From Nocardioidaceae bacterium (GTDB lineage: Bacteria; Actinomycetota; Actinomycetes; Propionibacteriales; Nocardioidaceae): a stretch of 39,655 nucleotides of DNA. The DNA lies in NCBI GenBank assembly GCA_025927595.1, contig JAICLD010000003.1, positions 1-39,655 of the forward strand, read 5' to 3'. The translations under genes were made by a program, and so were the position numbers. Numbering within the stretch: the stretch's first letter is position 1; the number at the start of each line of letters is the position of its first letter. Positions 16,904 to 21,654 of the stretch are shown one piece after another. A model generated the notes under the pieces. It did no database searches and had not been told where the DNA came from. It saw nothing but the letters and a program-made list of their open reading frames with translations.

Positions 16904-18004
16904 ATGCGAGCGGTGACCTTCGAGCAGTACGGCGTCGAGCCCACGGTCCGCCACGTCCCGGAGCCGTCGTGCCCGCCGGGCGGGGTCGTGGTCCGGGTGG
17001 GCGCGACCGGTGTGTGCCGCTCCGACTGGCACGCCTGGATGGGCCACGACCCGGTGCCCCTCCCCCACGTCCCCGGCCACGAGCTCGCCGGGACGGTCGC
17101 CGAGGCGGGCCCTGGGGTGCGCCGCTGGCGCGTCGGCGACCGGGTCACCGTCCCGTTCGTCTGCGGCTGCGGGCGCTGCGAGTGGTGCCGCGCCGGGGAG
17201 GCCCAGGTGTGCCCGGACCAGACGCAGCCCGGGTTCACCGGGCCGGGGTCGTTCGCCGAGCTGGTCGCCCTGCACGCCGCCGACACCAACCTGGTCCGGC
17301 TCCCCGACAGCCTCGACGACGTGACGGCGGCCTCCCTGGGCTGCCGGCTCGCGACCGCCTACCGCGCCGTGGTGACCCATGGTCGGGTCCGGCCCGGTGA
17401 CCGGCTCGCCGTGCACGGCTGCGGGGGCGTGGGCCTGTCCGCGGTCCTCGTGGGCGTCGCGCTGGGCGCCCGGGTGGTGGCGGTGGACGTCTCCGCGGCC
17501 GCGGCCGCGCGGGCCCGTGCGCTGGGTGCCGAGGCGGTCGTGGTGGCCGACCGTGCCGGGCACACCGCTGGTGGCGGCGACGTCGTGGCCGCGGTGCGCG
17601 ACCTGACCGACGGCGGCGCGCACGCGAGCCTCGACGCGGTCGGCAGCCCGGCCACCGCGGTCGCCTCCGTGCGGTCGCTGCGCCGCCGCGGCCGGCACGT
17701 GCAGGTCGGCCTGCTCCTCGGCGACCGGGCGACGCCGCCGCTGCCGATGGACCTGGTCGTCTCCCACGAGCTGGAGGTGCACGGCTCGCACGGCATGCCC
17801 GCGCACCAGTACCCCGAGCTGCTCGACCTCGTCGCCTCCGGCCGGCTCGACCCCGCCCTGCTCGTCGGGCGGGTGGTCGGGCTCGACGAGGCGCCGGCGG
17901 CGCTCGCGGCGATGAGCGCGCCACCGGGCGCACCGGGCGCACCGGGCGCACCGGGCGCACCGGGCGCACCGACCAGCGTGGGGATGACCGTCGTACGCCT
18001 CTAA
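16904..18004 (+). CDS. zinc-dependent alcohol dehydrogenase (MDR family)
   Basis: GVCRSDWHAWMGH, PHVPGHELAGTVAEAG, structural Zn CGCGRCEWCRAGEAQVC, cofactor GCGGVGLSAV. Confidence 0.93.
   Translation: MRAVTFEQYGVEPTVRHVPEPSCPPGGVVVRVGATGVCRSDWHAWMGHDPVPLPHVPGHELAGTVAEAGPGVRRWRVGDRVTVPFVCGCGRCEWCRAGEAQVCPDQTQPGFTGPGSFAELVALHAADTNLVRLPDSLDDVTAASLGCRLATAYRAVVTHGRVRPGDRLAVHGCGGVGLSAVLVGVALGARVVAVDVSAAAAARARALGAEAVVVADRAGHTAGGGDVVAAVRDLTDGGAHASLDAVGSPATAVASVRSLRRRGRHVQVGLLLGDRATPPLPMDLVVSHELEVHGSHGMPAHQYPELLDLVASGRLDPALLVGRVVGLDEAPAALAAMSAPPGAPGAPGAPGAPGAPTSVGMTVVRL
17923..17967 (+). repeat. 5 tandem copies of 9-bp accgggcgc (PGA/GAP codons) in the ADH C-terminus
   Basis: Exact copies at 17923, 17932, 17941, 17950 and 17959. 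Confidence 0.95.
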
Positions 18005-18005
18005 C

Positions 18006-18071
18006 GCCGAGTCGGCGCGTCCACAACACCCCAACCCCGTCGAGTCGGCGCGTCCACAACACTCTGCCGGC
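18006..18071 (+). repeat. left arm of 33-bp repeat array (2 units)
   Basis: GCCGAGTCGGCGCGTCCACAACAC at 18006 and GTCGAGTCGGCGCGTCCACAACAC at 18039 (23/24 identical, 33-bp offset). Confidence 0.95.
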
Positions 18072-18111
18072 GGCTTCTCCGGACCTCAGGTCTAGGAACG
18101 ACCAGGCGTGC

Positions 18112-18232
18112 GCTGTGGAGGAGCCGACTCGGCACCCCGGAGGCGCTGTGGAGGAGCCGACTCGGCACCCAGGAGGCGCTGTGGACGAGCCGACTCGACA
18201 CCCCGGAGGCGCTGTGGACGAGCCGACTCGGC
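18112..18232 (-). repeat. right arm of 33-bp repeat array (3 full units and a partial fourth, inverted relative to the left arm)
   Basis: GCTGTGGA(G/C)GAGCCGACTCG(G/A)C... at 18112, 18145, 18178 and 18211; reverse complement matches the left-arm core (20/22 for unit 4 vs left unit 1). Confidence 0.95.
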
Positions 18233-18262: not shown

Positions 18263-21200
18263 TCAGGCGTCGAACAGGGCGCGTACGTCGTCGGCGCCGA
18301 TCGGTGCGGCCATCAGGGCGTCGTCGTCGACGACCCGGGCGAACAGCGCCGCCTTGCGGGCCTTGAGCGCCATCACCTTCTCCTCGATCGTGTCGGTGGC
18401 GACGAGCCGGTACACGAAGACCTGCCGCCGCTGACCGATCCGGTGCGTGCGGTCCACGGCCTGGGCCTCGACGGCGGGGTTCCACCAGGGGTCGAGCACG
18501 AACACGTAGTCGGCCTCCACCAGCGTCAGCCCGACCCCGCCGGCCTTCAGGCTGATCAGGAACACCGGGTCGTCGCCGCTGCGGAACCCCTCGACGACGT
18601 CGGCCCGGCGCCGGGTGCGCCCGTCGAGATAGCTGGAGCCGATCCCCTCTGCCGCCAGGCGCTCCCGCACCCGGCGGAGGAACGTCGTGAACTGGCTGAA
18701 CACCAGCGCCCGGTGCCCCTCGGCCGCCAGCTCGAGCAGGTGGTCGACGAGCACGTCGACCTTGGCCGAGCCGATCCCGGCGTACGCCTCGTCGACGAGC
18801 GCCGCGTCGAGGCTGAGCTGACGCAACCGGGTCAGCGACCGGAAGATCGCGATCCGGTGCCGCTCGAAGTCGTCCACGAGCCCCAGCACCGCCTGCCGCT
18901 CGCGCTGGAGGTGGGTCTCGTAGACCGCACGGTGCCGCGGCGTCAGCGTCACGTCGAGGACCTGCTCCTGCTTGGCGGGCAGGTCGGCGGCGACCGTCTC
19001 CTTCGTCCGGCGCAGCAGGAACGGCCGGACCCGCTGCCGGAACCGGTCGAGGACGGCCCGGTCGCCGAGCCGCTCGACCGGGTTCGCGACGAGCTCCAGG
19101 AACCGCTGCGGCCACGGGTACAGGCCCGGCGCGACGATCGAGAGCAGCGACCACAGCTCCATGAGCCGGTTCTCCATCGGCGTGCCGGTCACCGCCAGCC
19201 GGAACGGTACGTCGATCCGCCGCACGGCCTGGTAGGTCTTGCCGTGGTGGTTCTTGACCGTCTGCGCCTCGTCGAGCACCAGACCGCCCCACGCCGCGTC
19301 GGCGTACGCCTCCTGCTCGAGCCGGAACAGCGTGTAGGACGTCACGACCACGTCGGCGCCCTCGCGCACCTCGGCGACGGTCGTGCCGCGCCTGGCCTGC
19401 GACTCGGTCACCGTGCGGACCTCGAGCCCCGGGGTGAACGTCGCGGCCTCGCCGGCCCACGTCGCCACGACGCTGGTCGGCGCCACCACGAGGAACGGGC
19501 CGGCGCCGTGCGCCCGGGCATGGGCGACGAGCGCGAGGGCCTGCAGGGTCTTGCCGAGTCCCATGTCGTCGGCGAGGATCCCGCCGAGCCCCGTCTGCCA
19601 CAGGTAGGCCAGCCAGCGGAACCCGTCCCGCTGGTAGCCGCGCAGCGTCGCCTCGAGCCCGACCGGCTCGATGTCGGGCAGCGCGTCGAGGCTGCGCAGC
19701 GCCTGCGCCGCGTGCACCCAGCGCGCGGCCTGCTCGTCGACGAGACCGATCTCGGCGAGCTCGTCCCACAGGTGCAGGTCGTGGTGGCCCACCCGGACCC
19801 CGCTCTCGGGCTGCTCGCGAAGCTCGGCGGCGGCGGCCACCAGGCCGGCCAGGTGGGCGAGCTCGGGCCGGTCGATGCGCAGGTGCCTGCCGTTGCGCAG
19901 CACCACCCGGTCCATGCCCCGCGTGAGCGCCTCGAGCACCTGGGCGAGCGCGACGGGGACGCCGTCGACGGTGATCTCGACCTCGAGGTCGAGCCAGTCG
20001 GTGCGCGGGTCGTCCGCGGGGCCGGAGGGGGCCGCGAACCGGACCACGGGCGTGCCGGTCAGCTCCCGGTAGTCCGGCCGGGCGCCGATCTCCTCGACCT
20101 CGACCTGCTCGCTGAGCCCGGGCAGGAGCTGCTCGGCGAACAGGACCGCGTGGGCGTCCTCGAAGACCCGCTCGTCCTCTAGACCGAGCTCGCGGCGGTG
20201 GTCGTAGCAGAGGTGGTAGGCCTGCTCGTCGTCGAGGACGAGCGCGTCGAGCAGCTCGCGCTCGCGGTCCCGCCTGCGCACGCCGCGGAACCCGCGCGAC
20301 TCCGAGAGCCGGTAGACCCGGTCGTCGGAGCCGACCCGGTAGCGCCAGGTCCACGCCGTCCGCACCTCGTCCGCGGCCACCCAGGTGACGCTCAGCACGA
20401 GCCGCGGCTCCACGGGCACCGGCACGGCGACCGAGCCGTCGCTGGAGCCGACCGGGACGTGGCGGTGCAGCCGGGGCAGGTACTCGCTCACCAGGTCGTC
20501 GCGGTCGGCAGCAGGCACCACGAGCGGCTCGCCGCGGACCAGCAGCCGCCGGACCGCCGGACCGGGCGGGACCGTGAGCGCCGCCAGCCGGACCGACCAG
20601 CGGCTTCCGTCGGCGTCCCAGAGGGCGACCGTCCAGCCGCCCTGCCCCAGCACGTCGAGGTCCTCGGCGGCGTACCACTCCTCCTCCGTCCGGACGCCGA
20701 GCCGCAGGCGGGCGTCGCCGTCCCCGGCACCGGCCACGTCGAGCCGCAGCGTCACCGGGTCGTGCAGGTCGACCGAGGACAGCCCCGGGCCGGGCACGAG
20801 AGCGAGGCCGGCCTCGACGCCGCGACGCAGCAGCCGGGCCTCGTCGGGACCGAAGGAGCCGAGGGGCAGGTACGGGTCGGAGCCGGCGTACAGCTGGCGG
20901 GACGCCGCCCGGTGCGCCGAGAGCAGGTCGTTGAGGGCCAGGACCTGCTCGGGCGGGTGCCCGCGCCGGTCCAGGTAGGGCACCTCGCTCCAGGAGACCC
21001 CGGTGCGGACCCAGTTGTCCCGGGCGCCCCGGCGCAGCGGGCGCAGCCTCAGCGTGCCCCGGGCCGGGGTCGCGCTCGAGGTCCAGCCGCGGTAGCCCCG
21101 CGACGGCGCCCTGAGGTCGACCTGGAGGGCGAGCGGGTGGCCGGGGGCCTCCGCCGCGCGCTCCGCGCCCTCGTCCAGCTCGTCGAGCAGCGAGGACAGC

Positions 21201-21556
21201 TGCCGCTCCCACCGCCGGGCCGGTCCCCCGCCGGCCGGCGCCTCACGCGCCTGCTCGTCGCGAACCGTGAGCAGCAGCGCGACCGCGTGCTTGCAGCCGT
21301 CACCGACGGGACAGCTGCACCGGCCCAGCACCCACACCCCCTCCCCGTCGAGACCGACGCTGAGGTGGACGGTGTACGGCGCGCTGCGGGACCCGCTCAC
21401 GGTCCCGCGGATGTCGAGGTCGCCGTCGCCGTCGAGCTCGTGGACGCAGGACAGGACGTTGCCGCGGCGCAGGTAGTCCCAGGCCCGGTCCAGCGTCGGC
21501 GTCCCGTAGCGGCGGCGCAGGTCCTCGTCGGCGAGCAGCGAGGAGAGGTCCACCAT
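18263..21556 (-). CDS. SWIM zinc-finger / SNF2-family DEAD-box helicase
   Basis: SWIM CSCPVGDGCKHAVALL; ILADDMGLGKTLQALAL, LDEAQTVKNHHGKTYQAV, VDRTHRIGQRRQVFVYRLVATDTIEEKV. Confidence 0.95.
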   Translation of the reverse strand: MVDLSSLLADEDLRRRYGTPTLDRAWDYLRRGNVLSCVHELDGDGDLDIRGTVSGSRSAPYTVHLSVGLDGEGVWVLGRCSCPVGDGCKHAVALLLTVRDEQAREAPAGGGPARRWERQLSSLLDELDEGAERAAEAPGHPLALQVDLRAPSRGYRGWTSSATPARGTLRLRPLRRGARDNWVRTGVSWSEVPYLDRRGHPPEQVLALNDLLSAHRAASRQLYAGSDPYLPLGSFGPDEARLLRRGVEAGLALVPGPGLSSVDLHDPVTLRLDVAGAGDGDARLRLGVRTEEEWYAAEDLDVLGQGGWTVALWDADGSRWSVRLAALTVPPGPAVRRLLVRGEPLVVPAADRDDLVSEYLPRLHRHVPVGSSDGSVAVPVPVEPRLVLSVTWVAADEVRTAWTWRYRVGSDDRVYRLSESRGFRGVRRRDRERELLDALVLDDEQAYHLCYDHRRELGLEDERVFEDAHAVLFAEQLLPGLSEQVEVEEIGARPDYRELTGTPVVRFAAPSGPADDPRTDWLDLEVEITVDGVPVALAQVLEALTRGMDRVVLRNGRHLRIDRPELAHLAGLVAAAAELREQPESGVRVGHHDLHLWDELAEIGLVDEQAARWVHAAQALRSLDALPDIEPVGLEATLRGYQRDGFRWLAYLWQTGLGGILADDMGLGKTLQALALVAHARAHGAGPFLVVAPTSVVATWAGEAATFTPGLEVRTVTESQARRGTTVAEVREGADVVVTSYTLFRLEQEAYADAAWGGLVLDEAQTVKNHHGKTYQAVRRIDVPFRLAVTGTPMENRLMELWSLLSIVAPGLYPWPQRFLELVANPVERLGDRAVLDRFRQRVRPFLLRRTKETVAADLPAKQEQVLDVTLTPRHRAVYETHLQRERQAVLGLVDDFERHRIAIFRSLTRLRQLSLDAALVDEAYAGIGSAKVDVLVDHLLELAAEGHRALVFSQFTTFLRRVRERLAAEGIGSSYLDGRTRRRADVVEGFRSGDDPVFLISLKAGGVGLTLVEADYVFVLDPWWNPAVEAQAVDRTHRIGQRRQVFVYRLVATDTIEEKVMALKARKAALFARVVDDDALMAAPIGADDVRALFDA

Positions 21557-21654
21557 GGCGGTCAGCCTAGAGAGCCGCACCCCCTGTCGAGCGGCCGCCG
21601 TGTTGACCGGTGGGGCAGGCTGGTCGCGAAGGCGCCGCCGACCGGAGGGCATGC

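Follow-up and report, generated by a model that had tools for sequence, protein, structure and literature searches.

The arrays analysed here probably form one half of a two-part system, in which a resident gene for a nuclease-like protein is paired with dispersed extragenic repeats and which works like REP/RAYT; we give this reading a probability of about 0.7. The repeats constitute a family with a defined arm geometry, they are associated with the flanks of one kind of gene, and their units are genome-specific. The window, a contiguous stretch of 39,655 nucleotides from a Nocardioidaceae bacterium (genome G000; 294 contigs, 82% complete), would contain a solo, gene-less copy, its cognate protein being encoded elsewhere in the same genome.

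The array between the ADH and SNF2 genes

The 258-bp gap that separates the stop codon of a zinc-type alcohol dehydrogenase gene (ADH, 18004) from that of a SNF2-family helicase gene (18263) is filled by an array of six 20-bp cores. They read GCCGAGTCGGC-GCGTCCACA, two copies on the plus strand and four inverted on the minus strand (Table 1). The first-pass annotation had described a two-armed inverted array at this position with a 33-bp period, and this description is borne out, as are its coordinates: the period is exactly 33 bp within each arm, and the core has six matches in the window with at most three mismatches, against 0.05 expected from dinucleotide shuffles. The left arm begins 1 bp past the ADH stop codon; the right arm stops 30 bp short of that of SNF2. 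The fourth minus-strand unit, formerly called partial, is not really so, since its 20-nt core is complete and only the outer linker is absent. The GACCTCAGGTC dyad reported for the spacer is present, and none was seen in the other arrays of the same genome that we inspected. At other loci, inter-arm spacers range anywhere from overlap to several hundred base pairs.

Table 1 Features of the window array and of the gene proposed as cognate to its core
Feature	Position	Strand	Remarks
Zinc-type alcohol dehydrogenase (ADH) gene	16904-18004	+	3' end towards the array
Left arm, 2 cores	18006-18058	+	Cores 18006-18025 and 18039-18058; dyad outward, tail inward
Spacer separating the arms, 55 bp	18059-18113		Contains the GACCTCAGGTC dyad, 18082-18092
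Right arm, 4 inverted cores	18114-18232	-	Cores 18114-18133, 18147-18166, 18180-18199 and 18213-18232
SNF2-family helicase gene	18263-21652	-	3' end towards the array
Proposed cognate gene of the window core	G000 contig C180:14781-15740		Three units of the window core on each side

The risk that the array could be mis-annotated as a gene had been pointed out before. A coding reading is rejected here, as the array falls outside the called genes and has units in both orientations. Reading the unit as a DnaA box (GTCCACA) was rejected because the unit tail is not conserved, being TCTGCA, TCCGCA or others in relatives. Rfam gave no matches to the array region, nor did a viral-contig search with the array. 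A Pro-Gly-Ala tail is encoded by a perfect 9-bp repeat, CACCGGGCG, which the ADH gene carries at 17922-17971, close to its 3' end.

The convergent SNF2/ADH pair exists without an array in two same-genus genomes, G002 (86% and 74% identity, respectively) and G006 (85% and 68%). Only 29 bp separate the two stops in G006, a genome with more than 200 units elsewhere. By this comparison the window array is lineage-specific; the empty orthologous sites belong to species whose divergence leaves no exact junction and would hide a target duplication. In another genus (G083, locus L327), an imperfect palindrome, CACCGAGTGTGCGCAAA...TTAGCGCACACTCGGCGGTG, lies just downstream of the SNF2 ortholog.

Copies, anatomy and placement of the repeats

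Pattern searches, from which all genome-wide unit counts derive, place the core at 56 sites in G000, compared with 4 for the reversed control; there are about 17 array loci with about 52 units. Variant copies number about 228 in G006, about 152 in G003 and about 31 in G002, all of the same genus, and core variants were not found in the same-genus genomes G001, G004 and G005. Tandem core pairs occur in 8 of 346 genomes of Nocardioidaceae, in two genera. When 85,462 species genomes were scanned for three dyads in phase, with any tail allowed, the matches listed were almost exclusively Nocardioides and Nocardioidaceae, among them N. albus, N. luteus, N. gansuensis, N. iriomotensis and N. ungokensis. 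The repeat family thus hardly extends beyond Nocardioides and its close relatives. It behaves as the dispersed, REP/BIME-like intergenic repeat that the first-pass annotation had suspected: copies are many, intergenic and mostly between convergent genes, and the arrays vary in copy number and are conserved in relatives.

Each unit consists of an 11-bp dyad and a non-palindromic tail, and its conserved part is the 20-bp core, not a stem. Counting arrays of relatives as well, units are spaced by 32 bp in 340 of 408 cases, by 31 bp in 32 and by 33 bp in 32; the 33-bp period is typical of G000, relatives having mostly 32. Among 111 arrays examined, the two-armed ones run plus then minus in 43 cases and minus then plus in none, the mixed orientation signatures of some arrays being largely due to the near-palindromic dyad, which matches both strands. 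The two-armed arrays listed for G005 again have a plus arm followed by a minus arm. The 20-bp core of G003 is 96% identical within arms and 94% between loci, while for the linker the figures are 87% inside one arm, 61% between loci and 54% between opposing arms. As the core is kept and the linkers are alike mainly within an arm, the arms seem to have grown by local duplication, each independently, with the core as the conserved part.

We defined the gene neighbours of arrays by our own codon-usage gene calls. The flanking genes are convergent at 54 of the 102 arrays whose two neighbours are known, compared with 22 of 241 background gaps (9%; p about 3e-29), and the median distance from array to stop codon is 9 bp. 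Such placement would suit a host 3'-end element, such as a bidirectional terminator or an RNA-stability hairpin, and the nuclease gene could then lie between two of these by chance. The folding of the RNA over the whole window array, far better than that of shuffles (z -7.4), agrees with such a role, but a single arm is not unusually well folded and no intrinsic terminator (stem then T run) was found in the region. The dyad side of an arm points towards a gene 3' end in 120 cases versus 38 opposite; part of this polarity arises because two-armed arrays are symmetrical, and single arms between co-directional genes have no clear polarity, at 12 to 7. Moreover, orthologous convergent pairs manage without an array, and both the gene association and the genome-specific units are left unexplained. 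We therefore regard a host 3'-end element as unlikely. Of the two structures proposed for the array at the outset, the terminator finds no support in sequence scans, whereas a hairpin or cruciform could still be formed by the long inverted arms.

The gene enclosed by the repeats

Where distant plus and minus arms enclose genes, one homologous gene is found between them in 6 of 12 cases, in several species; its product has about 325 aa. In a profile search covering 11 genomes, members score above 230 bits and paralogs no more than about 110. All 14 complete members of the core subfamily, from nine genomes, are flanked by repeats on both sides: 12 by tandem arrays and 2 by ~60-bp internally inverted palindromes. 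Two of these 14 members were discovered via their arrays, which leaves 12 as unbiased. The flanking tandem arrays have a period of 31-34 bp, or 22 bp in two, and two-sided tandem arrays are absent from all 14 low-scoring paralogs. Altogether, the pairing of this partner gene with flanking arrays is well supported.

Several paralogs, and distant relatives from a phylum search, have long inverted matches between their flanks, often palindromic. For distant relatives in other Actinobacteria (L292, L296, L300, L303, L307, L312), and likewise in Nocardioidaceae (L252, L260, L261, L262, L271), the flanking repeats are inverted palindromes or tandem arrays whose sequence is unrelated. For one of these distant members, L300, a strict pattern did not find the flanking palindrome dispersed in its own genome.

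The N-terminal half of the partner matches AbiEi antitoxin models (Pfam/PADLOC). Its C-terminal half matches the MTES_1575/DUF559 nuclease-like families, mostly below curated Pfam cut-offs: one of six partner proteins exceeds the MTES_1575 cut-off and the remainder fall below it. An AlphaFold2 model built from five sequences (mean pLDDT 80) has AbiEi 6y8q as its best structural match (E 5.6e-3), and nuclease-like matches to the C-terminal half are weak. Residues E257, D259, G260, H264, D273 and R276 are shared by all 18 sequences compared and follow the pattern E-x-D-G-x3-H...D..R. These residues, the model and the mostly sub-threshold matches point to a C-terminal half resembling a PD-(D/E)XK (DUF559/MTES_1575) nuclease. 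The AbiEi-like winged-helix part at the N-terminus probably binds the units, and the whole is probably a DNA-cutting protein, predicted and so far unstudied.

A RAYT had been suggested as the partner of the repeats. No Y1_Tnp/RAYT-type transposase was detected in nine genomes, in a search that detected its positive controls; the AbiEi-like/REase-like protein is found instead. The partner protein has no match among known transposase families, nor in PHROGs, phage, plasmid and viral-contig searches. The neighbours of the partner gene that we examined resemble ordinary metabolic genes, the two searched with Pfam being a dienelactone hydrolase and a CoA transferase, and no AbiEii toxin gene was seen among the neighbours listed for six members (Pfam on two).

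Most of 18 members carry a DnaA-box-like motif (TGTGGAYRA or TTRTCCACAGG) 37-72 bp upstream of the partner gene, in the interval from the promoter-side arm to the start codon (L243-L249, L253-L256, L126, L133, L178, L220). The motif occurs at 7 of 128 other genes, and none is found downstream. Expression or action of the partner gene is perhaps tied to replication.

Unit specificity and inheritance of the locus

Unit sequences differ between partner genes. As a test of prediction, genome-wide searches were made with three units taken from gene flanks. The unit of G005 has 83 matches in G005 and 5, 2 and 1 in three relatives; the G001 unit has 40 in G001 and 0 in three relatives. A second G000 unit, GACCCGGCGCGTCTGGCG, has 87 copies in G000, 70 in G004 and 50 in G006, and the four remaining genomes have 0-3; it exactly flanks genes in G000 and G004, and a close variant does so in G006. 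Flank-derived units thus recur in the genomes predicted, and the test was passed. Solo arrays of N. luteus and Nocardioides sp. URHA0032 share the tail of their own gene, and in NZ_CANLDB (Nocardioides) three paralogs have three tails and one dyad, the sampled solo arrays falling nearly all into two tail classes. Distances between proteins and between units show no clear correlation (Mantel r 0.22, p 0.08), which counts against the two-part reading.

The second G000 unit belongs to a second gene/array pair of that genome (C196:7110-8048, L255), and arrays of both G000 unit types can adjoin (contigs C16, C76). At L237 and L244 the two arms of one locus differ in unit type, so that arms may be acquired or converted separately.

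The members in G000, G004, G005 and G006 have a common neighbour gene (86-91% identity) and therefore occupy one inherited locus, but their units differ. Another member has a common neighbour in G003 and G000 (79% identity). To judge by these neighbours, the partner gene remains at conserved loci as its repeats turn over. This bears on whether the arrays are MITE-like, non-autonomous remnants of a conventional transposon whose ends carry multiple sites, as in Tn7 or IS21, given the inverted multi-site ends around one gene and the dispersed gene-less copies. We hold such an origin to be very improbable, for the partner is no known transposase, its gene stays at conserved loci rather than moving, and arm length varies through local duplication.

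It is plausible that the arrays are protein-binding sites. They could serve a chromosome-organising or transcription-roadblock protein, the AbiEi-like/REase-like protein binding there without any spreading: the strict 31-33 bp phasing corresponds to about three helical turns, the 20-bp core is constrained while linkers drift, and the partner has an AbiEi-like DNA-binding part. Binding alone seems rather improbable to us, as the invariant nuclease-like residues and the fast replacement of units between close species at an orthologous gene better suit repeat propagation.

Under the two-part system that we favour, a vertically inherited, non-spreading gene would recognise and propagate short extragenic repeats. 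Its protein would bind the units and cut there, repair of the breaks may spread and homogenise the arrays, and the gaps between convergent stop codons would be the places where copies are tolerated or targeted.

Relation to known systems and significance

A RAYT gene always lies between two inverted REPs, and the REP unit has a conserved GT(A/G)G head (PMC2817692). The present system resembles REP/RAYT in its short extragenic repeats with many dispersed copies, in a cognate gene lying between inverted copies of one repeat and in genome-specific repeat-gene pairs. Contrary to RAYT, an HUH protein of the IS200/IS605-like Y1 type, the partner combines AbiEi-like and PD-(D/E)XK-like parts and is unrelated. 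The unit, too, departs from the short REP palindrome: it joins an 11-bp dyad to a non-palindromic tail without the GT(A/G)G head and stands in phased tandem arrays, in Actinobacteria. Since protein and repeat both differ, the system is not a member of REP/RAYT.

With the AbiE type IV toxin-antitoxin the partner shares an N-terminal half that matches AbiEi models and 6y8q, and it differs by the fused nuclease-like domain and the arrays on its flanks. Vsr-like homing endonucleases (EDxHD/DUF559-type) have a DUF559/Vsr-type nuclease signature similar to that of the partner, whose gene, in contrast, lies outside introns, inteins and conserved genes and has dispersed arrays on its flanks. Mycobacterial MIRU/VNTR and cyanobacterial LTRR are intergenic tandem repeats of variable copy number; unlike them, the arrays described here are inverted, two-armed and have a cognate gene that they flank.

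We found no description of an array-nuclease pairing in the open-access literature that we searched on the protein family or on actinobacterial repeats, and the whole has the appearance of a repeat-spreading system of Actinobacteria that had gone unrecognised. We lean slightly towards a wider proposal, that actinobacterial AbiEi-like/DUF559-like proteins make up a second class of repeat-associated nucleases, one independent of HUH, in which every protein maintains a dispersed extragenic repeat of its own as phased tandem arrays or ~60-bp palindromes, and that many unexplained actinobacterial intergenic repeats are theirs. Protein-repeat specificity is testable, since three paralogs with three different unit tails can coexist in a single genome. 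REP/RAYT has served as the standard example of a gene that coexists with many tiny extragenic repeats. If our reading is true, a non-homologous pairing in a different phylum would imply that this gene-repeat way of life evolved twice, and it would provide a function for an abundant unannotated protein family and an explanation for a class of intergenic repeats.
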